Shown here: positions 7,370 through 15,897 of the stretch, piece after piece
Layout: each line of letters starts with the position of its first letter
Position numbering within the stretch: the first letter of the stretch is position 1
IMG/VR virus record: IMGVR_UViG_3300033571_006041
Location: 1 to 27,417 of that record
Direction: 5' to 3' (one strand)
DNA: 27,417 nucleotides
Source: a virus
Notes under the pieces: model-generated
Database searches by the model: none
Told to the model about the DNA's origin: nothing
What the model saw: only the letters and a program-made list of their open reading frames with translations
Made by a program: the position numbers and the translations under genes

Positions 7370-7891
7370 CTAAGCGTCACCCTCTCGCTCATAGGCACGG
7401 TCAGCATCTAGTGGTGGCTTATGGTTTGCGCGGTCAGAGAGCTGCAGCGGGCTGATTGGGCGCAGCGGGCAGGTTGCATCCCAGCACTTGGGGAATCGGT
7501 CATTGCCCTCAGCGCCTACGCAGGTGCGGCACATTTGCTCAACCACCACGCGGTAGCGCCGCAGCTCATCAACTGCGGTGAGGCTTACTTTAGTGGCGAG
7601 CGCATACGCCTTCACCCACTCAACCTCATCAAGCGTTGGCACCACACCGCCAAAGTAACGCTCACGCATCCAGTGCACGCTGCGCTGGTGCATCTCAGTC
7701 ATCCCAAAGAGCCGGTTAGGCTTCACCTTCAAACGGCTGGCCCACATCCTTACGCCACTTTGGAAATCCTCAATGAGCGCTAACGCGGCTGGATTGCTTG
7801 AATGGTTACGCGCACGAGTCCCTGCCCCAGACTTTCCAGCTTTGTGAATGCCGCTGGGCTCAAGTCCAGTATCCTGCTGTTTTTGTGCCAT
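7370..7891 (-). CDS. Hypothetical protein with Cys-containing C-terminal segment
   Basis: The 173-aa product has a low-complexity polar N-terminus (1-35), a helical middle, and a C-terminal part with CRTC (C120, C123), C136 and C141 in a CWDATCPLRP context, suggesting a small zinc-binding site. Similar C-P-L-x-P endings occur in phage proteins of unknown role. Start ATG 7891 has a GGGGGAGAG SD, but it lies 112 nt inside the preceding barrel gene in another frame, so the first 37 residues are overprinted on conserved coding sequence. No standard start codon lies in frame at the end of that gene; the next ATG is at 7747. Last gene before the non-coding gap. Confidence 0.7.
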   Translation of the reverse strand: MAQKQQDTGLEPSGIHKAGKSGAGTRARNHSSNPAALALIEDFQSGVRMWASRLKVKPNRLFGMTEMHQRSVHWMRERYFGGVVPTLDEVEWVKAYALATKVSLTAVDELRRYRVVVEQMCRTCVGAEGNDRFPKCWDATCPLRPISPLQLSDRANHKPPLDADRAYEREGDA

Positions 7892-8163
7892 CTCTCCCCC
7901 GCATCTTTATCGCATCTGCCGCACCAGTCAACCACCGTGACTATCACGCATTTGGTTTTATCATCCTGCCGGCAGACACGCAGCATATACGGTTTCTGCC
8001 CCCAGCGCCAGCCTGCACCTGCCGCGTAATTGATTATGCCCGCCCTGCTGTACCAAGTGCTTTGCCCGTTGCGCTCCGCGTTAAACCAAGAGGCAACACC
8101 GTGTGAGCGCGGTAGGGCTGCTGGGTTGAGCACCAAGCTCAACGCCAGCAGCAGTGCCGTCAT
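7780..8163 (-). CDS. Secreted double-psi beta-barrel (RlpA/expansin-like) protein
   Basis: 127 residues: a hydrophobic N-terminus (2-17, LLLALSLVL) that looks like a signal peptide or anchor although it has no leading Lys/Arg, then a compact DPBB domain. Landmarks are GVASWF (22-27), TVVDWCGRC (76-84) with the canonical Asp at D79, and RILDLSPAAF (97-106) followed by LGQGLVRVTI. Four cysteines (64, 72, 81, 84) could form two disulfides, fitting export. RlpA-type barrels bind or cleave peptidoglycan glycan strands; in a phage early region this could be wall modification, exclusion or lysis help. Catalysis is not shown. Joined by TGATG to the upstream gene; its end overlaps the next gene by 112 nt. 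Confidence 0.78.
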   Translation of the reverse strand: MTALLLALSLVLNPAALPRSHGVASWFNAERNGQSTWYSRAGIINYAAGAGWRWGQKPYMLRVCRQDDKTKCVIVTVVDWCGRCDKDAGERWHKNSRILDLSPAAFTKLESLGQGLVRVTIQAIQPR

Positions 8164-8411
8164 CAGTCAGCCTGTACGGTGGGCTTGCCACCGCCAACGA
8201 TTGCATCACCAAACCAGCGCCCAGCCTTGCTGTCTGCCCAGTAGAAAAGGTCAGACAAATCCCAGCCGTTTGCATTGGCAAACTTCAATAGCTGGCGGTC
8301 ACCGTAAGCCTTTTGCTTAGCGGTCATATATTCCCGGCAGCCTAGGTAGCCAAAGCCACCGCGTGCTGGGTTAAACATCAGTGCCTCAATGTGTCCGATT
8401 TTCAGCTTCAT
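8163..8411 (-). CDS. Hypothetical small protein, first gene after promoter P1
   Basis: An 82-residue soluble protein without a family I recognise. It has a short basic start (MKLKIGHIEALMFNP), a Gly-rich turn (ARGGFGYLGC) and a Trp-rich end (DLFYWADSKAGRWFGDAI). ATG 8411 is preferred to the in-frame GTG at 8417 because AAGGAG is 6 nt upstream of it. The gene lies 53 nt downstream of the P1 -10 box and ends in a TGATG junction with the barrel gene, so it probably heads an operon of three genes. Confidence 0.75.
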   Translation of the reverse strand: MKLKIGHIEALMFNPARGGFGYLGCREYMTAKQKAYGDRQLLKFANANGWDLSDLFYWADSKAGRWFGDAIVGGGKPTVQAD

Positions 8412-8464
8412 TTTCACTCCTTTGGCAGCCCCAGCAACTTGCTGGTTTCCTCGCTGCTGTAGGC

Positions 8465-8494
8465 ATCATACGCATCCTGTTGCAACGCTGTCAA
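8465..8494 (-). promoter_or_regulatory. Promoter P1 (TTGACA-N18-TATGAT)
   Basis: Perfect -35 TTGACA (8494-8489) and -10 TATGAT (8470-8465, 5/6) on the minus strand, 18-nt spacer, 53 nt from the -10 to the ATG at 8411. The -35 lies at the exact centre of the dyad 8481-8503. It starts at the stop codon of the resolvase-like gene. Confidence 0.72.
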
Positions 8495-8503
8495 CCCGTT
8501 GCA
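8481..8503. promoter_or_regulatory. Operator O1: TGCAACG-N9-CGTTGCA
   Basis: Perfect 7+7 bp dyad, arms 8481-8487 and 8497-8503, centred at 8492 on the P1 -35 hexamer. Identical arms and spacing occur at O2. Position over the -35 favours a repressor site. The binding protein is unknown. Confidence 0.68.
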
Positions 8504-8877
8504 TCCTCAGGCTCTCGCGGTGCAACAAACCACGCGCAGAAATCATCTAGGTCAAGCACGATTACCGCACGCCTGCGCCCGCCGCCAGCGCCAGGGCTGT
8601 CCCCAATCACGAGCCCCCTTAGCTGGTCACCCTTCACCGGCACGCTCTGCAGCCAGTCCCACTGCCGCTCACTAAAGCTGCCGCCCACCTTGCACTGCAC
8701 CGCCAGCCAGTCATTGGCAACATCCTGCTTGCCACCAAACTGCCCTACGCGCTGACCGCCTAGGCGCTTGGCAATCTCTCGCTCAAAAGCATTGCCACGA
8801 GCCCTAGCGTTTTTCCCCTTGCGGCTCTTGGCTGGGTCAATGCCCTGCCTAATCGCCTCATCCTTAAAGCGCCCCAT
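8491..8877 (-). CDS. PD-(D/E)XK nuclease, Holliday-junction-resolvase-like
   Basis: The 128-aa protein has the small-resolvase layout: a basic lead-in (KGKNARARG), an acidic helix FEREIAKRLGG (E32/E34), D52 after a GQFGGKQD turn, and Q61-C-K63 in LAVQCKVGG as the variant ExK motif. Such enzymes cut branched DNA or debranch replication products before packaging. Start ATG 8877 overlaps the preceding stop by one base (TGATG). The C-terminus ends over the P1 -35 region. A different nuclease specificity cannot be excluded; the QxK replacement of ExK is common in resolvase-like phage proteins. Confidence 0.72.
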   Translation of the reverse strand: MGRFKDEAIRQGIDPAKSRKGKNARARGNAFEREIAKRLGGQRVGQFGGKQDVANDWLAVQCKVGGSFSERQWDWLQSVPVKGDQLRGLVIGDSPGAGGGRRRAVIVLDLDDFCAWFVAPREPEDATG

Positions 8878-9053
8878 CAGATTGCAAACCCAACCCTGCT
8901 ATCTCGCAGCTTCATCTCATTGCTTTTGTAGGCAAAGCAATCAGTGCAATATAGTTTTTTGCCGTTGTATTTCCAGCTAATGAGCCTCGGCCCATTGCAT
9001 TTGCCGTCATCGCCGGCTTTACGCTTTACACCAATGCAGTTTTTCTTTTGCAT
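8877..9053 (-). CDS. Hypothetical 58-aa Cys-containing protein, first gene after P2
   Basis: A basic little protein (MQKKNCIGVKRK...) with C6, C19 and a C36-x-x-C39 pair, probably one zinc site. No family recognised. Start ATG 9053 is chosen because AGGAG lies 8 nt upstream and promoter P2 is 57 nt upstream. The same frame stays open further up to an ATG at 9215 (112 aa, ATGA-coupled to the preceding gene), but that extension would read through the P2 promoter and both inverted repeats, in clearly AT-richer DNA, so I prefer the short form. Joined by TGATG to the resolvase gene. Confidence 0.6.
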   Translation of the reverse strand: MQKKNCIGVKRKAGDDGKCNGPRLISWKYNGKKLYCTDCFAYKSNEMKLRDSRVGFAI

Positions 9054-9074
9054 TCCTCTCACTCCTTTTGCAGT

Positions 9075-9092
9075 GCAAACCATTTGGTTTGC
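9075..9092. promoter_or_regulatory. 18-bp palindrome in the P2 leader
   Basis: GCAAACCA-TT-TGGTTTGC, perfect 8-bp arms, lying about +12 to +29 from the predicted P2 start. It could be a second operator, different from O2, or a leader hairpin (7-bp stem, 4-nt loop) in front of the SD of the 58-aa gene. Confidence 0.55.
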
Positions 9093-9110
9093 TTCCTCAC
9101 TGCTGACACC

Positions 9111-9139
9111 ATTATACCATACCGTGCAACGCCGTTTTT
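9111..9139 (-). promoter_or_regulatory. Promoter P2 (extended -10 TGGTATAAT)
   Basis: Perfect TATAAT (9116-9111) preceded by TG-G, an extended -10. At 17-nt spacing the -35 position (9139-9134) is AAAAAC, a poor hexamer, so the extended -10 should carry recognition. The -35 position coincides with the centre of dyad O2. It sits in a 158-nt gap (9054-9211) that is otherwise AT-rich. Confidence 0.7.
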
Positions 9140-9147
9140 GCGTTGCA
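9125..9147. promoter_or_regulatory. Operator O2: TGCAACG-N9-CGTTGCA
   Basis: Same arms and same 9-nt spacer length as O1: arms 9125-9131 and 9141-9147, extended by one more pair (C9132/G9140) to 8 bp. Centre at 9136, on the -35 position of P2. Confidence 0.68.
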
Positions 9148-9211
9148 TCATCTTTTACGCTTAACACATTTTGAATTTGTGCGTAAAAAATAAATGGCAC
9201 GGGCATTTTGC

Positions 9212-9505
9212 TCATCCCTCTAAAAGCCTTGCGAGCTGCGCAGTGCCGCCATCGCTCAAAGTAAACCGGCTTGGCTGCAGCTCCATCAGCCCGTGCTTCA
9301 CAAGGTCTGCATTGGTTTTGCGGTTGCCAATGCCCTCGTACAAGAAAAACCACCCTTCAGGCGCAATGGCATCAGCGTAGCGCTGCGAGAGAATGCACCA
9401 CGCGCGCCCGCCAACCCCAGGCTCCTCACACCACGCGTCAGCGCCCTCTTGCACCGCAATCACGCGGTCATCAAGAAAAGGCGCGGCACGCTCTATGCGC
9501 GTCAT
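9212..9505 (-). CDS. Hypothetical protein (97 aa)
   Basis: Soluble alpha/beta-looking protein beginning MTRIERAAPFLDD, with Trp/Cys residues in WCEEPGVGGRAWCIL and an EGWFFLYEGIG strand. I recognise no family. ATG 9505 is selected over an upstream start at 9529 because it forms an ATGA overlap with the preceding stop. It is the last gene of the chain of coupled small genes before the P2 region. Confidence 0.65.
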   Translation of the reverse strand: MTRIERAAPFLDDRVIAVQEGADAWCEEPGVGGRAWCILSQRYADAIAPEGWFFLYEGIGNRKTNADLVKHGLMELQPSRFTLSDGGTAQLARLLEG

Positions 9506-9681
9506 TTGATATGGCCGCCGCAGAGCCACTGCAAGCGCCTGCTCTTTGGCGCGTAGCTGATGCGCAGCACGCGCTTAGCATCTTTGAGATTGAGCAACTG
9601 CTGCGCGCACTCTGCGCAAAGCGTAGGCGTAAACACCGGCGCTTTGCTTGCGCCGCCGCGCGAAGTTTTTACGCCAGCCAT
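9502..9681 (-). CDS. Small putative zinc-binding protein (59 aa)
   Basis: Reads MAGVKTSRGGASKAPVF at the start, then C22-A-E-C25 and, near the end, W52-L-C54-G-G-H57. The Cys/His set (C22, C25, C54, H57) could ligate one zinc around a short basic helix (KDAKRVLRI). The ATG at 9681 lies 13 nt inside the upstream membrane gene and the stop overlaps the next ATG (ATGA). No family recognised; DNA or RNA binding would fit the basic charge but is a guess. Confidence 0.55.
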   Translation of the reverse strand: MAGVKTSRGGASKAPVFTPTLCAECAQQLLNLKDAKRVLRISYAPKSRRLQWLCGGHIK

Positions 9682-9848
9682 ACCGCCCTACCAATCCAAA
9701 GCGCGGCTGCAAAGCTCACCACAGCAAAGAGCAGCGCAATGCCCGCATTGCCAGCCTTGCGGCTCGCCGGTAATGATGCAAGCACCAATCCACCAAGCGT
9801 GGCTTGGAATGCCGCAATGATTAACCCGATTGCATCAAACGCGTTCAA
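9669..9848 (-). CDS. Small two-helix membrane protein (59 aa)
   Basis: Two hydrophobic segments (about 6-27 and 35-53) separated by a short polar loop (PASRKAGNAG), like a small holin or inner-membrane peptide. Start TTG 9848 overlaps the previous stop (TTGA), the only possible start since an in-frame TAG lies 12 codons upstream; AAAGGTGG precedes it. It sits in the early replication region and not in the lysis cassette, so I call it only a membrane protein. Confidence 0.55.
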   Translation of the reverse strand: MNAFDAIGLIIAAFQATLGGLVLASLPASRKAGNAGIALLFAVVSFAAALWIGRAVWLA

Positions 9849-10042
9849 TGTGCCACCTTTCCCGTCAGCTCTGCCAGCCTGCTAATGGCTGCTTCAACTG
9901 CCGCCTCTGGCGTATTGCCAGAAAAGACTAACTCACCGCCTAGGGTATCAGCCAGCACACAAAGGTAGCGGTCAGGCTCGCTAAGCAGCGCGTCAAACCG
10001 ATAGCCAACCTGTGCGCACAGCGTGTTTAACTGCTCAAACAT
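9845..10042 (-). CDS. Hypothetical protein (65 aa)
   Basis: Starts MFEQLNTLCAQVGYRFDALL, followed by a short beta region and a C-terminal helix (TPEAAVEAAISRLAELTGK). Soluble, acidic, no motif recognised. ATG 10042 lies 8 nt inside the kinase gene end; a longer reading from 10168 would overlap conserved kinase codons and is unlikely. Confidence 0.6.
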   Translation of the reverse strand: MFEQLNTLCAQVGYRFDALLSEPDRYLCVLADTLGGELVFSGNTPEAAVEAAISRLAELTGKVAH

Positions 10043-10607
10043 TTGCCCTCCCCTCAATCGCTGCGGCAAGCGCCGCGTATGAATCCTGAGGCGTGCGGTG
10101 CGTGGTGTCAATCGTGGCATCAAAAGGCGTACCTTCCCACGCCAGCTCAGTGATATCGCCGGTGCCAATCAGCGAGCCGCCACGCCTTGCGCGCCTAACC
10201 TCAGGGTCAGCGTATACCCGCACCACCAAGGCGCTGGGCTCAATGATGCGGAGCATTTGCGCCTCGCTAGGTAGCCGCACATCGTCAACCACCACGCTGA
10301 TGCCCCTGCTGCTCAGCGCGCTATACCCCGCTGACCAAATGCGCAACCAAAAGTGAATGTCAACATCTCGCAGCGCCGCCCCAACCTCTTGCATCAACTC
10401 ACGCCCTGTTAGGCGCACCTTGCCGCTGAAGCGCTGTAGCTCAAGCACCTCATCCTTGGCAATGGGGTCAGGATATGCCTGCTGAATCACGCCCCTGATG
10501 CCGTCAGCAATGCCGTGCCGGTGATAGCCGCCGTGCTCTACCAGCATCTCAGCCAATGTGCTCTTGCCGCTGCCTTGCGGCCCCATCAGCGCAATCAACC
10601 TGCTCAT
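10035..10607 (-). CDS. Deoxynucleoside monophosphate kinase-like P-loop protein
   Basis: 190 residues with Walker A at 9-16 (GPQGSGKS) right after a hydrophobic strand (LIALM), a helical lid region, VVVDDVRLPSEAQ (about 105-117) as the second conserved block and R-rich VRRARRGG (about 137-144) near the lid, as in phage dNMP kinases. It would phosphorylate dNMPs from degraded host DNA to dNDPs, feeding replication. ATG 10607 overlaps the preceding stop by four bases. A more general AAA/NTPase role cannot be excluded. Confidence 0.78.
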   Translation of the reverse strand: MSRLIALMGPQGSGKSTLAEMLVEHGGYHRHGIADGIRGVIQQAYPDPIAKDEVLELQRFSGKVRLTGRELMQEVGAALRDVDIHFWLRIWSAGYSALSSRGISVVVDDVRLPSEAQMLRIIEPSALVVRVYADPEVRRARRGGSLIGTGDITELAWEGTPFDATIDTTHRTPQDSYAALAAAIEGRANV

Positions 10608-11002
10608 AATCCGCCCCCATCAACCTTGGCGTACCAGCCCTGAATGGCGCGCTGAAGGTCAGCCACGCTGTTGCCAATGTGCGTGAGTTGCCCGCTGCCA
10701 CCATCCCAGCGTGCCGCGCTGAGCTTTGGCAGGTAGTCAACACTCTCCACCGTCATTGCCGTACCATCCGTGTAGCCGGTCACGATTAGCACCGTAAACC
10801 AAGGCGTAGCTGCCAGAGCGCTGAGCAGCCCACGCTGCCCTACGCTAACCCCCTCATCAGGGCGCTTCCACTCTTGAATAAGAAACTTGCCCTTGCGCTC
10901 AGCGATTAGGTCAACATTGCTAAAGCCCCATTTAGGGTTTCCCTCAATGAGCCCGTCAATCTCCGTAGTGTCAATGTGCTTAGCCTCACTGTTTCGCATC
11001 AT
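10604..11002 (-). CDS. Putative PD-(D/E)XK nuclease (132 aa)
   Basis: The core D31-L-I-A-E-R-K-G-K-F-L-I-Q-E44-W-K46 matches the beta-hairpin with D and ExK of the restriction-endonuclease fold, with Q56 downstream as often seen in VRR-NUC and resolvase-like proteins. The rest is alpha/beta with no second domain. Probable role is DNA processing in replication or recombination, given the neighbours (winged-helix replication protein, dNMP kinase). ATGATG at 11002 follows GGAGGTGG and overlaps the upstream TGA. Motif-level evidence only. Confidence 0.6.
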   Translation of the reverse strand: MMRNSEAKHIDTTEIDGLIEGNPKWGFSNVDLIAERKGKFLIQEWKRPDEGVSVGQRGLLSALAATPWFTVLIVTGYTDGTAMTVESVDYLPKLSAARWDGGSGQLTHIGNSVADLQRAIQGWYAKVDGGGL

Positions 11003-11439
11003 CGCCCACCTCCGCGCAGAATTGCGCCAACGCTCAGCGGTTTAATATAAGTGTCACTCTCTTTCTCTTTCTCTCTCTCTATCTCTTTCTCAGACCGTTG
11101 CACAACCGTTGCATAACCGTTGCTTTTGGCATTTCTCCATCGTGCGGAGCGCTCTGTAACAGTTGGGTCAACTTGGTACTTAGAAAAATTACGCAAATAA
11201 ACGCGCTCATCTTGTAAAAAAATGAGCCCTACTTTCTCCAATGTTGATAAATGCCGGTGTAGGTTTTTAGGCATCAGCGCCTTCAGGTGTGCCATTGAGC
11301 CAAACGAGCCCTGCGGGCGCTGCCGCTTAGCACGGGTGAGCAGCTTGATATACGCCAGCTGCGCCCCATCAGGCAGCAACGCAATCTGCTCATCCTCATC
11401 CCAGCCTACCGTTAGTTTTATCCACGCGCCTTGTGACAT
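10999..11439 (-). CDS. Winged-helix replication initiator / replisome-organiser-like protein
   Basis: 146 residues. The N-terminal 95 look like the wHTH of phage replisome organisers (MSQGAWIKLTVGWDEDEQI, LLPDGAQLAYIKLL, then KNLHRHLSTLEKVGLIFL as recognition/wing). A charged tail (EKEIEREKEKESD, 113-125) follows, then a basic end. Such proteins bind an origin, often inside their own gene, and recruit host helicase. Consistent with that, the codons for residues 105-115 are three 11-bp iterons and those for the charged tail form a polypurine tract. ATG 11439 has GGAGG 7 nt upstream; an upstream start at 11487 would lie in an intercistronic hairpin. No helicase gene is present nearby. Confidence 0.68.
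   Translation of the reverse strand: MSQGAWIKLTVGWDEDEQIALLPDGAQLAYIKLLTRAKRQRPQGSFGSMAHLKALMPKNLHRHLSTLEKVGLIFLQDERVYLRNFSKYQVDPTVTERSARWRNAKSNGYATVVQRSEKEIEREKEKESDTYIKPLSVGAILRGGGR
11041..11092. other. AT-rich and polypurine/polypyrimidine tract beside iterons
   Basis: The plus strand is pure pyrimidine from 11056 to 11091 apart from one A at 11081, and TTTAATATAA occupies 11041-11050. A strand-asymmetric tract followed by AT-rich DNA, directly adjoining the iterons at 11094-11124, is what a replication-origin unwinding element would look like. It lies inside the coding frame. Confidence 0.5.
11094..11124 (+). repeat. Three tandem 11-bp iterons, ACCGTTGCA core (candidate origin)
   Basis: Copies at 11094-11102, 11105-11113 and 11116-11124 (last base changed to T), phased exactly 11 bp, about one helical turn. 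The core CGTTGCA is the same heptamer as the arms of operators O1 and O2. They lie in the replication-protein gene, as origins do in lambda O and in several replisome-organiser genes. No fourth copy is visible on either side. Confidence 0.6.
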
Positions 11440-11458
11440 TTCGTACCTCCATCTTGGC

Positions 11459-11490
11459 GGGGTGCCAGCGTAACCCGCCGCTGGCACCCC
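11459..11490 (-). other. Intercistronic hairpin between annealing and replication genes
   Basis: Perfect 12-bp stem (arms 11459-11470 and 11479-11490) with an 8-nt loop, 13 nt after the stop of the annealing-protein gene and about 20 nt before the next start. No U-run follows on the minus strand. More consistent with RNA processing or stabilisation than with an intrinsic terminator. Confidence 0.65.
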
Positions 11491-11502
11491 AAGTGCTACT
11501 GC

Positions 11503-12237
11503 CTAAAAGGGCAGCTCCTCTAGTGAATCCTCAGGCACAAACTTTGGTGCCGTAGGCTCCGTGTGCTCTTTTACCCACTTGGCGCTTGGCTTATCCTTGC
11601 ACCAGGTGCCGTCAGGTGCCTTATGACTTGCCGCCCAAAACGGCTGGTATGGCTTGCCGGTTGCCTTGCTCACGCCCCCAGGCTTCAGGCTCCATTTCTG
11701 CCCGTGTGAGCAGGCATCATCAGCGGCTGACTCCGCAAAAATCATTGCCGCCCGCAGGGCAAGCTGCGCATCATCCGTAGGGGCTGTCACCCCCTCGCTA
11801 AAATCGCCGTATTTGCCCTTTTCCGCAACGCTGGCGAGCGTTTGTGGCTTGGGTGGCATCTTGATACCCCCAGCGGCTTTATCGGGGCTGTAAAGGCTGC
11901 GCCCCACGCCCACCTGAGCCGCGCACCGGCGGAGGGCATCGCTCGCAGCTGACTTTAAAGGCTCGTCATCTTGCGGCCCGTTGGGATAACCGAAGTCCTG
12001 TTTTATGGTGGTCTTGCCATCAATCACCAGGCACAAGCTGCCGTGCACCACTGAGCGAGCAGGGTCAGCCACCTTTACCTCAAACTGCCAGCCCTCAATC
12101 CCTAGCGTGTCATCCAAACGCTGCGCCACCGCCCGCGCGTCAGCGTATGTGAACACCAGCCCGGCACGCCCAGGGCGGTGCTTCAAATCCTTTTCCTCAA
12201 ATGGCGCTGCCAGCGCCGCTGCGATTTCCTTGCTCAT
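11503..12237 (-). CDS. Rad52/Rad22-like single-strand annealing protein
   Basis: 244 aa. Residues 1-118 fit the Rad52-type annealing fold: MSKEIAAALAAPFEEKDLKHRPG lead-in, YADARAVAQRLDDTLG helix, GWQFEVKV strand, and the diagnostic EPLKSAASDALRRCAAQVGVGRSLY helix (92-116). A linker leads to a small possible zinc module (C176, H178, H205, C213; GKPYQPFWA). The protein ends in EDSLEELPF, resembling the acidic LPF/IPF tip of SSB proteins. It should anneal complementary single strands made by the YqaJ exonuclease encoded just upstream (ATGA overlap), forming a two-component recombinase. The zinc module and tail function are inferred. Confidence 0.82.
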   Translation of the reverse strand: MSKEIAAALAAPFEEKDLKHRPGRAGLVFTYADARAVAQRLDDTLGIEGWQFEVKVADPARSVVHGSLCLVIDGKTTIKQDFGYPNGPQDDEPLKSAASDALRRCAAQVGVGRSLYSPDKAAGGIKMPPKPQTLASVAEKGKYGDFSEGVTAPTDDAQLALRAAMIFAESAADDACSHGQKWSLKPGGVSKATGKPYQPFWAASHKAPDGTWCKDKPSAKWVKEHTEPTAPKFVPEDSLEELPF

Positions 12238-13175
12238 TCTGCGCCTCCATCCTTAAACTTGAACACCCGCGCCCCAGGTACTTCCTGAGTATGCGCATCA
12301 ACGATTTCCTGCGGCACCTTTGCCGCTTCAGCCACCGCGCGCCAATCGGTTTTGCGGCTGGCTTTGTTTTGCTTCCAAGTGGCTTGCCACCCAGCGCCCA
12401 CAATTCCTACGCCCTTGCCGATTGCTTCCTTCAGGCTGATGGCAAGGTTTTGTAGCTCTTGGTCAAGCAGTTTGCTCTCATAAAGTTTCTCAGCGTAAAG
12501 CGCCGCCACGCGCTCAATGCTGCCGCTTGCCTGCGCCCATTCCTCTGTGCTCTGCGGCACCACCTTGGCAAGCGTGTCTGAATCCTCGCCTACCAGTTCA
12601 GGTGCCCAGCCGGTGGCAATCAGGTTGCGAAACTGCACCGCCTTTTGGTACAGCTCAGTTTGATAATTCAGGTCAGCCTTCACGCGCTCGCACCTAAACT
12701 TGAGCCCGCCAAGTAGCACTGCAACATCAACCCAAGGTGCACCTGTAATAAACATTTGCCACTGTACCTGCGCCACAAATTCAGGGGGCACTGGGTACAA
12801 GCTCCAGCGCGGGCTCACGCTGGTTTTGATTTCCACCAGCCCAGGCTCACCAACCACCGTGCGGTCAAGGCTCGCCATTGCCCAAGGAATCTCAACCAAG
12901 CGCACCACGCCATTGCTGCGCTTCAACTTGCGCCCTGTTTCCAGCGTGTACCAGTCAGCCACTGCCTGCTCAAGCAGGATGCCGCGCGTTGCGGCCTCAC
13001 CTGCGGGCTGCTCATCAACCGCGCCGGTCTTTTCTGCCCAGAGTTGAAACCGCGTTTTATATTCACTGAGCCCAGCGATAACCGCCGCATCAGTGGCAGT
13101 GATGCCGCCCTTACGCAACGCAAACCATTCTGGGCTGCGCTGTGGTGCCTTCACCAGTTCCCATTGCTTAGCCAT
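12234..13175 (-). CDS. YqaJ-type recombination exonuclease (lambda exonuclease fold)
   Basis: 313 aa. RSPEWFALRKGGITATDAAVIAG (13-35) is the N-terminal YqaJ signature with R21. The nuclease core follows: E69 in RGILLEQAVADWY, D104 in AMASLDR, E115-I-K117 in GLVEIKTS, and Q138/Q140 in FVAQVQWQM. The C-terminus is helical, ending in a basic KQNKASRKTDWRAVAE region. It resects dsDNA 5' to 3' to give ssDNA for the annealing protein encoded next. ATG 13175 directly abuts the TAA of the preceding gene. Length is normal for the family. Confidence 0.92.
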   Translation of the reverse strand: MAKQWELVKAPQRSPEWFALRKGGITATDAAVIAGLSEYKTRFQLWAEKTGAVDEQPAGEAATRGILLEQAVADWYTLETGRKLKRSNGVVRLVEIPWAMASLDRTVVGEPGLVEIKTSVSPRWSLYPVPPEFVAQVQWQMFITGAPWVDVAVLLGGLKFRCERVKADLNYQTELYQKAVQFRNLIATGWAPELVGEDSDTLAKVVPQSTEEWAQASGSIERVAALYAEKLYESKLLDQELQNLAISLKEAIGKGVGIVGAGWQATWKQNKASRKTDWRAVAEAAKVPQEIVDAHTQEVPGARVFKFKDGGAE

Positions 13176-13415
13176 TTAGTTTTCCTCCTTCAATAGTTGC
13201 CAAGTTCCCTTAACCTCAACCATTTGCCCATCACAGACAAATACAGCGGTGTTCATAATGCACCTGCTAGAAAACCACCCATCAGCCCGCTGCCGTGGAG
13301 GGGAAAGAAACAAAAACTGACGCGTTCCACATTCCGTGCATACCAACTCAAATGAACACCCAAATCGCTCAAGTTCCTTTCGTGTCATCTCAACAAATGA
13401 CGGTTTACGCGCCAT
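13176..13415 (-). CDS. Hypothetical Cys-containing protein (79 aa)
   Basis: Begins MARKPSFVEMTRKELERFG and has C20, then C26-x-x-C29 in VCTECGTRQ, and C52 and C61 further on, suggesting a zinc-ribbon-like fold. The ribbon C26/C29 pairs poorly with the later cysteines, so the fold is uncertain. GGAGGGG precedes ATG 13415; it overlaps the end of the FmdB-like gene by 11 nt and abuts the exonuclease gene. No family recognised. Confidence 0.65.
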   Translation of the reverse strand: MARKPSFVEMTRKELERFGCSFELVCTECGTRQFLFLSPPRQRADGWFSSRCIMNTAVFVCDGQMVEVKGTWQLLKEEN

Positions 13416-13599
13416 TGTTTCCCCTCCTATCTTTTTTTGCCCAGCCTGTGCCCTTGTAAACCGTTGCGGGTGCTGAATACAGCAGCCGCATTACGCGCCC
13501 ACATTTGCCGCAGCGCTGGCTTTCCGTTGCGCTCATTGGGTGCTGCCTTTCCTCACCACCCCCGCCGCATTTATCGCAGCGGTACAGATATGCCGGCAT
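13405..13599 (-). CDS. FmdB-like zinc-ribbon protein (64 aa)
   Basis: MPAYLYRCDKCGGGGEERQ with C8-x-x-C11 and RCGKCGRVMRLLYSAPAT with C30-x-x-C33 is the layout of the FmdB/CxxC zinc-ribbon family. The function of that family is not settled; a regulatory or nucleic-acid-binding role is usually assumed. ATG 13599 overlaps the upstream stop (TAATG), placing it in the chain of small coupled genes below promoter P3. Confidence 0.72.
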   Translation of the reverse strand: MPAYLYRCDKCGGGGEERQHPMSATESQRCGKCGRVMRLLYSAPATVYKGTGWAKKDRRGNNGA

Positions 13600-13760
13600 T
13601 AGCCAATCAGTGCCGCTACGAAAATGAGCCCAGCAAACGCAAAGCAGAGCTGCGCGATAAAGCCCAGCATCTCTGCGCGCTGCTGCTGCTCGCGCAGCAC
13701 GCTGGTGCTAATCCGCATTTGTGTGTAGGTCTTTGGTTGATTCCTGCGGTCAAGTTTCAT
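13599..13760 (-). CDS. Small single-span membrane protein (53 aa)
   Basis: A charged, Gln-rich N-terminus (MKLDRRNQPK, REQQQRAEM) of about 30 residues precedes one hydrophobic helix (about 31-53, LGFIAQLCFAFAGLIFVAAL) that ends at the C-terminus. Start ATG 13760 overlaps the previous stop (ATGA), and its TAA overlaps the FmdB-like start (TAATG). It is a tail-anchored topology. No family recognised. Confidence 0.6.
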   Translation of the reverse strand: MKLDRRNQPKTYTQMRISTSVLREQQQRAEMLGFIAQLCFAFAGLIFVAALIG

Positions 13761-13843
13761 TGCATCCCTCCCGCTGCAAGTAGCAGCACCATCGCAAACA
13801 TAAATAGCGCCACACTCAGCGCCTCAGCAATAACGGTAAGCAT
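13757..13843 (-). CDS. 28-residue membrane peptide
   Basis: MLTVIAEALSVALFMFAMVL followed by LLAAGGMQ, almost entirely hydrophobic, one membrane span. The ATG at 13843 overlaps the upstream stop (TGATG) and the stop overlaps the next start (ATGA). Exact coupling on both sides supports reality despite the size. Role unknown; hydrophobic micro-peptides in phage operons can act on membrane proteins of the host. Confidence 0.5.
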   Translation of the reverse strand: MLTVIAEALSVALFMFAMVLLLAAGGMQ

Positions 13844-14100
13844 CAGCGCACCCCCATCATCAGGTTATTAATTGCATCGGCGCTGTTCTTATCGCCATAC
13901 TTAGCAAGCCAATATGAGCCGCGCACCGCAGCCGCTGCAAGGTCATAGTGCGAGCGTGCGCGCTTTGCAGCGGTCTTGGTTGCAAGCGCTACGCTTGCCT
14001 GCTCAACATTCACCGGCTCCATAAGTGCGCCATCGCAAATGTTGCCAATGATTTCTGCCAGCTCTTTTACCGTGCCCTGTGCGCTATGTGCCTTTGCCAT
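13843..14100 (-). CDS. Hypothetical protein (85 aa), first gene after P3
   Basis: Starts MAKAHSAQGTVKELAEIIGN and contains two basic helical stretches (ALATKTAAKRARSHYDLAAAA, GSYWLAKYGDKN). No clear HTH or named family; the charge pattern would allow DNA binding. ATG 14100 is chosen over an upstream GTG because GGGAGAG is 7 nt before it and it stands 55 nt behind the P3 -10. TGATG couples it to the 28-residue peptide. Confidence 0.68.
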   Translation of the reverse strand: MAKAHSAQGTVKELAEIIGNICDGALMEPVNVEQASVALATKTAAKRARSHYDLAAAAVRGSYWLAKYGDKNSADAINNLMMGVR

Positions 14101-14155
14101 TTTCACTCTCCCTATCAGGCCCACCGGTCTGGTGGATTCACTCCCTGACTCCCAC

Positions 14156-14184
14156 AAGGTACACCCCCCTGCAACGGCTGTCAA
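14156..14184 (-). promoter_or_regulatory. Promoter P3 (TTGACA-N17-TACCTT)
   Basis: Perfect -35 TTGACA (14184-14179), 17-nt spacer, and a -10 TACCTT (14161-14156) that matches TATAAT at only three bases but fits the TANNNT form used by many actinobacteria. The -10 is 55 nt from ATG 14100, nearly the same as at P1 and P2, and the -35 lies under the imperfect dyad O3. Confidence 0.55.
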
Positions 14185-14192
14185 GCGTTGGC
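14170..14192. promoter_or_regulatory. Operator O3, imperfect TGCAACG-N9-CGTTGGC
   Basis: Left arm identical to O1/O2, right arm 5 of 7. Further half-site-like sequences follow: GGCAACG (14190-14196) and TGTTGCG (14199-14205). The cluster is centred on the P3 -35. Confidence 0.5.
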
Positions 14193-14253
14193 AACGCCTG
14201 TTGCGTGGCTATTTTTTATGCAGGCTGAATACTGTAACAATCGTGCGTGGGGT

Positions 14254-14527: not shown

Positions 14528-15674
14528 CCCACGAGCCGTTGCCAACCACCACAGAGAGCAGGCCCGCTGGCGCGATTACGCCCGCCTGCTCAGTAAACCA
14601 TTGGCTGCCGCCATCAAGCGCTGGCGCTTGGATATGCGTGCGCGCCCCTGATTGCTTCACCATCAGGTGGTGATAGTGCCCTGTGAGCAGTAGCTGCGCA
14701 TCGCCAATGGGCTGGAAGCCCAGCGCCTGCTTTGCCCACCACGCCTCACTGGTGCCCTTCATTTGGTGCCCGTGCGCCAAGCCAACAATGGTGCCGCACA
14801 CATCAATTGTCAGTGTCAACTCATTTTTAGGAAACACAAACGCAATGTGGTCATAGGCTGGGTTGGCGCGGATTACCTCGCCCACCTGCTCAATGGTTGC
14901 CACATCATCGTTATCACCAAAGGTGGTGTACGCCTTGCCGCTCTGCCGATTCTCGCCGTGATTACCAGGCACCGCCGCAACAATGATTTCAGGCGCAAAG
15001 GTTGCCCAGTGCGTCAGCGCTTTCACCATCAAGCGCCGCACCACCGTCACCTGCTCGCGCCTATCTAGGTCAGCTTGGAATGCCTGCATTGCGTAGTGCC
15101 CGCTGCAGGATTCAACCAAGTCACCTAAGCCAACTACCACCAAGCGCTTGAGCGGTCTGCCTAATTTCACAAGCTCACGCCATCGCTGCTCAACCTCGCC
15201 AATGCCTGCCAGGAATCGCTGCACAATGCCAGCGCTACCGCCGCCCTCACCCTTGCCCATTTGCAAGTCACTCACCGCCACCAGCAGCGCCACGCCATCC
15301 TCACGGATTGCTGGGCGCTTTGGCTTATAGCGCTTAATCTCTGCAATCAATGCCGCAACATCGCCATCAGCGGCAACGCGCTTTTGCACCACCTTGCCCT
15401 TCCACTGCCGGTTGAGTTTCCCTAGCGGGTCACCCCAGACATTGAACAGCACAGGCTCAACCACCTCAAACAGGTCTGGGTTTAAGCCCCATACCTTCAG
15501 GATGGTTGACCAATCTGGCGCATTCTCAGCGGGCAGCGCGTCAGTGGTAATGGTGCCCTGCTTGCCATCCCATTGAATCCCAGGCTCCCAGCCCTCAGCG
15601 TGCTTGCGCTCTGGGCGCTTTGCAGCGTCAAGCTCTTGCTGCACTTTTAGGATTTCATCAAGCCCCTCAGACAT
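14481..15674 (-). CDS. Calcineurin-like metallophosphoesterase
   Basis: 397 aa from ATG 15674 (8-nt overlap with the HTH gene; an upstream GTG/TTG frame to 15758 would overlap more). The five metallophosphoesterase blocks are visible: D136-L-Q138 (variant of DxH), GD185-L-V-E188, GN238-H239-G-E, H301-G-H303 and GH333-Y-H335. The N-terminal 120 residues are a separate, mostly helical region. DNA exo/endonuclease activity of the Mre11 kind is often assumed for phage members; the reaction is not shown here. The DxQ and GDxxE variants are typical of a phage subgroup as I remember it. Paired with a small HTH protein as in actinobacterial phages. Confidence 0.85.
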   Translation of the reverse strand: MSEGLDEILKVQQELDAAKRPERKHAEGWEPGIQWDGKQGTITTDALPAENAPDWSTILKVWGLNPDLFEVVEPVLFNVWGDPLGKLNRQWKGKVVQKRVAADGDVAALIAEIKRYKPKRPAIREDGVALLVAVSDLQMGKGEGGGSAGIVQRFLAGIGEVEQRWRELVKLGRPLKRLVVVGLGDLVESCSGHYAMQAFQADLDRREQVTVVRRLMVKALTHWATFAPEIIVAAVPGNHGENRQSGKAYTTFGDNDDVATIEQVGEVIRANPAYDHIAFVFPKNELTLTIDVCGTIVGLAHGHQMKGTSEAWWAKQALGFQPIGDAQLLLTGHYHHLMVKQSGARTHIQAPALDGGSQWFTEQAGVIAPAGLLSVVVGNGSWDDLRVLPCDAGTPRA

Positions 15675-15897
15675 TGGTGCACCTGCACTCACCGCGCCGG
15701 TGGCGCGCAATCGCAAAGTAGCGCCAGCGGTGCCCGCGCTTTTCCAGCCAGAGCTCAATGGCTTTGCTGGTAATGCTCACGGTCTGTAGCGCCTCATCAA
15801 GCGCCGCACGGTCTGATGCCTCTAACTCCATCAGCTCGTAGGTACAGCGCGGCCCTTTTAGGGGCTGCAGCGCCCTAAACTCATCAAGCCTATCCAT
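15667..15897 (-). CDS. Small helix-turn-helix protein (76 aa)
   Basis: Residues 30-73 read as an HTH unit: SDRAALDEALQTVSITSKAI, then LWLEKRGHRWRYFAIARHRR, ending in GECRCTNV. The pattern of acidic helix, S/T-x-x-A-I, RGH and a final ARHRRGEC is common to small phage proteins encoded beside metallophosphoesterases. DNA binding is inferred; it is one candidate for an early regulator. ATG 15897 has an excellent GGGGAGG SD. It follows a 67-nt gap after the holin gene. Confidence 0.68.
   Translation of the reverse strand: MDRLDEFRALQPLKGPRCTYELMELEASDRAALDEALQTVSITSKAIELWLEKRGHRWRYFAIARHRRGECRCTNV

Follow-up and report, generated by a model that had tools for sequence, protein, structure and literature searches.

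The locus described here raises the question of what binds an inverted repeat that recurs at three promoters of one phage genome, and what such an arrangement does for the genes behind them. The window, meaning the whole stretch of DNA that was analysed, is an IMG/VR record of 27,417 bp in which all identified genes lie on the minus strand. It comes from an uncultured, freshwater phage belonging to a large uncultivated lineage. Portal and protease genes run off one end of the window and a capsid gene is located at the other. In the relative G006, which carries a terminal repeat of 127 bp, about 0.46 kb separates the protease from the capsid gene, and on this basis the window is considered nearly complete. 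The protease-like ORF (1-1398) seems, by eye, to contain an N-terminal HAD-phosphatase-like domain with a DIDGTL motif. In family searches conducted with a subset of the ORFs of this near-complete window, no integrase, cI or cI/cro pair was found, nor any classical-type phage repressor gene; apparently, the phage is devoid of lysogeny genes. A near DNA search against named phages gave no match. The closest TerL among them (45%) is that of Pontimonas phage phiPsal1, which is lytic (PMC6106888), and for this reason an aquatic Microbacteriaceae host can be guessed. Neither the core pattern of the leader hairpin described below nor an exonuclease alignment revealed a relative in bacterial genomes.

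Operator dyads at three early promoters

The three dyads (operators O1-O3) and the promoters (P1-P3) are as follows.

8481-8503, unstranded: O1, operator dyad TGCAACG-N9-CGTTGCA, exact match, centred on the P1 -35
8465-8494, minus strand: P1, TTGACA-18-TATGAT, 11/12 consensus match
9125-9147, unstranded: O2, operator dyad, exact match, placed relative to the P2 -10 as O1 is relative to that of P1
9111-9119, minus strand: P2, extended -10 TGGTATAAT without consensus -35, read from sequence, kept in L124, L126, L127 and L131
14170-14192, unstranded: O3, imperfect operator dyad on the P3 -35, 2 mismatches
14156-14184, minus strand: P3, TTGACA-17-TACCTT, main early promoter, read from sequence, kept in 12 relatives

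The first-pass annotation of this DNA had described a dyad shared by the three promoters, and the sequence TGCAACG-N9-CGTTGCA is indeed present with 0 mismatches at O1 and O2 and with 2 at O3, just upstream of which additional GCAAC/GTTGC half-sites are found. The same 7-bp arm did not appear twice at gap 9 in any of 300 first-order Markov sequences, and it appeared twice at any gap from 0 to 20 in 5 of 300; the dyads are confirmed as real and beyond chance. P1 is the top promoter match of the region. The late promoter at 4679-4651 lacks the dyad, as had been stated. Two details of the annotation require correction. The -35 hexamer assigned to P2 does not exist, as AAAAAC/AAAACG is found at its place and the promoter has the extended -10 instead. 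O1 is only partly intergenic, overlapping the final 13 bp (8491-8503) of gene 8491-8877, which stands upstream of P1.

The exact dyad pattern was scanned in 2.9 million viral contigs, and relatives of the phage were among the matches. The annotation had proposed this search of related phages, and the dyads are kept in them; the opposite pattern, conserved promoters with lost dyads, was not observed. In relatives 75-93% identical to the window, O1 retains 14/14 arm bases while its flanks diverge, and O2 and O3 are retained with small changes. Conserved copies of O1 are present in L121, L016, L123, L124, L127 and L131, and likewise in L060 and L076. The O2 of L124, L126, L127 and L131 has the 1-mismatch form TGAAACG-N9-CGTTGCA, and O3 in relatives reads TGCAAACG-N9-CGTTGCA, with one extra A in the left arm. 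The dyads could, in principle, be relics of a lost temperate-type immunity repressor, in keeping with the failure of searches in the near-complete window to show an integrase or a cI-like gene; however, the O1 arms are identical (14/14) even between phages with about 20% difference in their genes, and we regard this explanation as very improbable.

Operator classes across the lineage

Eighty promoters were grouped into 10 clusters. The pattern ACG-N9-CGT ranked first among 1088 triplet-by-gap patterns, being present in 7 of the 10 clusters, compared to 4 for the next pattern. It is found in 6 of 8 class representatives, with a nominal P of about 1e-10 that ignores some after-the-fact choice and the kinship of C and L152. 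The inverted-repeat scores of single sequences are not significant for most classes other than A, whereas the joint pattern test is. The operators of the individual classes are listed below.

Class A: TGCAACG-N9-CGTTGCA, on the -35
Class C: TGTCACG-N9-CGTGACA, on the -10
Class E: AGAAACG-N9-CGTTTCA, on the -10
Class X: GGGACG-N9-CGTCACA, on the -35
Class F: GGGACG-N9-CGTTTAC, in the spacer
L185: TTGACG-N9-CGTTGAG
Class B: left half of the operator is TTGACA

There are three sites per genome in class A and one in classes C and E. By these comparisons, the dyad of the window is one class of a lineage-wide operator, with a shared core and spacing and class-specific outer bases. A single family of regulators that co-evolved with its binding site would leave such a pattern, and in the classes nature provides a series in which the joint change of a regulator and its DNA site can be studied. 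The annotation had read the dyads as sites of a dimeric repressor blocking -35 recognition. A dimeric regulator is well supported by the conservation in relatives and by the ACG-N9-CGT core across the operator classes; the blocking of the -35 does not hold as a general rule, because other classes have dyads of the same architecture that cover the -10 or fall within the spacer. Class-specific operators over early promoters resemble the architecture of lambdoid-type immunity classes; in contrast to those, no integrase or cI/cro pair was found here, and the classes share the ACG-N9-CGT core.

Class D has neither the ACG-N9-CGT pattern, nor the hairpin, nor the gene at 9212-9529 considered below. 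Its early promoters (L170:9132, L166:9054, L167:8920) have different leaders, e.g., GGAGGG-AAGACAG-CCCTCC, and a GTAC-type dyad. A block at 14193-14230, CTGCATAAAAAATAGYCACGCAAC, located upstream of P3, is common to classes A and B. Contig G014 (L206/L207; 37177 bp), which exceeds its kin in length by about 9 kb and contains both class-B and L152-type genes, is probably a chimeric assembly joining two phages and was set aside.

A structured RNA at the start of early transcripts

The first reading of this DNA missed an RNA hairpin following every one of P1-P3, which is conserved more widely than the dyad sequence. It covers about 36 nt at the predicted mRNA start and consists of an outer stem, a GAGGAA-type bulge and an inner stem-loop, after which the Shine-Dalgarno sequence follows. 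The three leaders have a like fold with differing stem sequences.

8424-8458, minus strand: P1 leader hairpin (GAGGAAA bulge), matched by model R1 without the P1 hairpin in its seed; R2 E 6.7e-6
9069-9104, minus strand: P2 leader hairpin, R2 E 1.3e-6, fold z -2.86
14113-14150, minus strand: P3 leader hairpin, R2 E 1.1e-5; R1, with no P3 in its seed, found the element in relatives

The first covariance model (R1), whose seed contained neither P1 nor P3, recovered both of these hairpins together with further groups, and the second model (R2) found all three hairpins of the window. In 737 kb of other viral contigs, R2 gave no stray matches, detecting only L060 and L076, both of which are dyad-bearing relatives. 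Among 39 distinct sequences, 93.2% of cells are paired, compared to 73.0% when shuffled, and double changes occur in 100 cells (31.5 shuffled) and at 10 of 12 pairs. The alignment behind these numbers was fitted to the model and is biased towards it, the safeguards being the seed-free recovery and slid pairings, in which at most 47% of cells are paired. The hairpin strongly covaries and is a structured RNA with compensatory changes on both sides of its stems. Its position is equally constrained: in 61/61 distinct sequences, 5-7 nt separate the end of the -10 from the hairpin, after which the Shine-Dalgarno sequence begins within 0-3 nt, and a TTGACA-like -35 is present in 57/61. Three hairpins per genome are found in class A, one in most other near-complete relatives and none in class D. 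A search of Rfam 15 gave no match for the hairpin and nothing relevant. The hairpin model locates early promoters of uncultured phages straight from sequence, and the hairpin gives studies of phage early gene expression a new conserved leader RNA to examine, in a group that is little known.

As to its function, the hairpin is probably a 5'-end and ribosome-site element that would protect mRNA and present the ribosome site. The predicted accessibility of the Shine-Dalgarno sequence counts against this, being only slightly higher with the hairpin (0.67 vs 0.61). A purely passive role, in which any 5'-terminal stem would do by slowing mRNA decay, is a minority possibility that deserves consideration. 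5'-terminal stem-loops are an established means of mRNA stabilisation, the stem begins 5-7 nt past the -10, approximately at +1, and its sequence varies freely; however, a passive stem does not need the GAGGAA bulge, the C-G pair at columns 20-38 and the loop A (invariant, 38/38), which are all conserved while the stems vary. Conservation at the bulge and loop points to additional recognition of the hairpin, either by a protein or by the ribosome. An alternative is that the hairpin works as put RNA does in HK022, as an antiterminator that acts on RNA polymerase when it leaves the early promoters. The putL site is located just downstream of PL, and put RNAs comprise about 70 nt with two stem-loops (PMC9378689). 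Both elements lie at the start of early phage transcripts and include a bulge, which is functional in put; the hairpin is conserved across classes while the operators vary, and no trans factor would be needed. Unlike put, the element described here is 36 nt long, has one stem-loop and lies directly against the ribosome site, and a scan of the early-region coding strand showed no strong intrinsic terminator for which read-through would be required. A put-like role is quite unlikely.

Exchangeable genes behind the hairpins

The first gene behind each hairpin is small.

8163-8417, minus strand: first gene behind P1, 84 aa, 95-99% identical where present
8877-9062, minus strand: first gene behind P2, 61 aa, in a cassette present or absent among relatives
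13843-14106, minus strand: first gene behind P3, small exchangeable ORF, 87 aa, near-identical gene in L136

Operator and hairpin are both kept in dozens of related phages, and the small genes behind them are swapped. The P3 gene of the window is near-identical in L136, where it stands behind a class-C promoter, and relatives carry different genes in the P3 slot. Similar swaps of first genes are seen for L124/L142, L131/L190 and L127/L147. The segment 8880-9224 is missing whole from L121, L016, L123 and L122, showing that the P2 promoter, operator, hairpin and gene come and go together. None of the first genes behind hairpins has a clear family or a match to a known anti-defence protein; taken together, they form a collection enriched in candidate genes for host takeover or anti-defence.

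The candidate regulator

The gene of the candidate binder and that of a possible partner are as follows.

7370-7891, minus strand: candidate operator-binding regulator, 173 aa, third gene behind P1, from locus comparison and modelled core
9212-9529, minus strand: conserved 105-aa protein, accompanying hairpin-bearing classes and absent from class D

At the locus downstream of 7780-8163, proteins of the 7370-7891 type are encoded in classes A, E and B, L185 and L182. Classes C (L331:7863-8483), L152, X and F have there a protein of 206-211 aa whose N-terminus contains an HTH, and D has a distant one. The type of operator half-site largely tracks the type of protein at this locus, with the exception of class F, in which a CGTT half-site goes with the HTH-type protein. 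A search by sequence found no HTH in the class-A candidate, and a profile comparison with the HTH protein of the same locus gave no similarity. In the model of the candidate (mean pLDDT 66.5), about 32 of the 50 PDB matches listed for the core are XRE/lambda-repressor-like, including ClgR, DdrO, P22 c2, C.Esp1396I and Aca7, all at E >= 0.45. Considering these data, the 7370-7891 protein may be the repressor of the dyads, with a chance that we place somewhat short of even.

Other proteins fit less well. The 76-aa HTH protein (15667-15897), one of the binders that the annotation had put forward, is unlikely, being absent from the class-A relatives G006, G008, L123 and L124, which keep the dyads. 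The product of 8163-8417 is missing from G006, which retains them too. No homolog of the replication protein (10999-11487) was found in class-C genomes, which argues against it as a lineage-wide binder. The 9212-9529 protein is too conserved across classes for a class-specific DNA binder, and its wing-like fold matches are weak; it is a possible partner. The dyads might also be bound by a host regulator, the phage borrowing host control. That the phage binder is still a candidate and that no classical repressor or integrase was found would suit this, but the outer bases and position of the operator are class-specific while its core and spacing are constant, and a phage gene varies along with the half-site type; a phage protein that co-evolves with its site would be expected to show this. 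We consider a host regulator unlikely.

Proposed mechanism

The dyads, promoter positions, RNA structure, spacing, conservation and gene swapping were computed; from these we infer the transcription start, repression, the binder and the function of the hairpin. We lean, by a little over even, towards an autoregulated early regulon in which 7370-7891 would be the best-candidate regulator and the hairpin would shield the 5' end and present the ribosome site. It assumes that the window contains three copies of an early-gene start cassette, ordered as an operator over a sigma-70-type promoter, a 36-nt stem-bulge-stem-loop at the transcript start, a Shine-Dalgarno sequence and an exchangeable small gene. 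A dimeric HTH-type regulator of the phage, made early, would bind TGCAACG-N9-CGTTGCA and shut the early promoters by negative feedback; the candidate itself is within the P1 operon. The hairpin would bury the 5' end of the message and leave the ribosome site presented. The cassette has the appearance of a conserved switch that turns early phage genes on and off, and what began as the dyads of one genome becomes a lineage-wide rule, with the operator core and the promoter-hairpin-ribosome-site spacing fixed and the gene variable. It is also conceivable, with a low probability, that one phage regulator controls the early genes twice across the lineage, through DNA binding at the promoter dyad and RNA binding at the leader hairpin. 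Aca2 reportedly binds DNA and RNA hairpins alike. If such dual control were true, the leader would mark exchangeable host-takeover or anti-defence genes.

Comparison with known systems

Start Associated Sequences (SAS) and Extended SAS (ESAS) were described for cluster K mycobacteriophages and cluster EF Microbacterium phages (PMC3203893, PMC7302621). In these phages of actinobacterial hosts, as here, an element is repeated at the translation start of small early or non-structural genes, an inverted repeat lies directly upstream of the ribosome site, the consensus varies by subgroup and the downstream genes come from different families. In contrast, the element of the window is a 36-nt stem with a purine bulge, supported by covariation and tied to a promoter and transcription start, and there are 1-3 copies per genome rather than 11-19. 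The SAS itself is a 13-bp GGGATAGGAGCCC-like sequence at the start codon, whereas the leaders read here contain AAAGGAGTG or AGGAGGTCA. The R2 model gave no match on cluster K phage Pixie (24-61 kb).

Similarities are also seen to the anti-CRISPR-associated (Aca) autorepressors and to the early anti-defence regulons of archaeal viruses (PMC9410906, PMC11065993), in which inverted repeats lie over the core promoter of early small-gene operons, small genes rotate behind a conserved regulatory sequence and a candidate HTH repressor is encoded downstream. The gene 7370-7891 lies behind P1, and its product may be a repressor of this type, its XRE-like fold matches being only at E >= 0.45. However, no Aca homolog was identified by sequence, and the conserved RNA leader is not part of these regulons as described in the two papers. 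The module shares parts with SAS/ESAS, Aca-type repression and the archaeal regulons, and it fails at least one tested feature of SAS/ESAS and put.

Other small ORFs of the region

The segment 14481-15897 contains a metallophosphoesterase gene and the 76-aa gene, absent from most class-A relatives. Two small membrane-peptide ORFs are located at 13757-13843 and 13599-13760. The block 13753-13843 was considered as an RNA and rejected, since it corresponds to the ORF of a 28-aa membrane peptide, MLTVIAEALSVALFMFAMVLLLAAGGMQ, which shows 91-93% DNA identity, compared to about 75% for the flanking genes.
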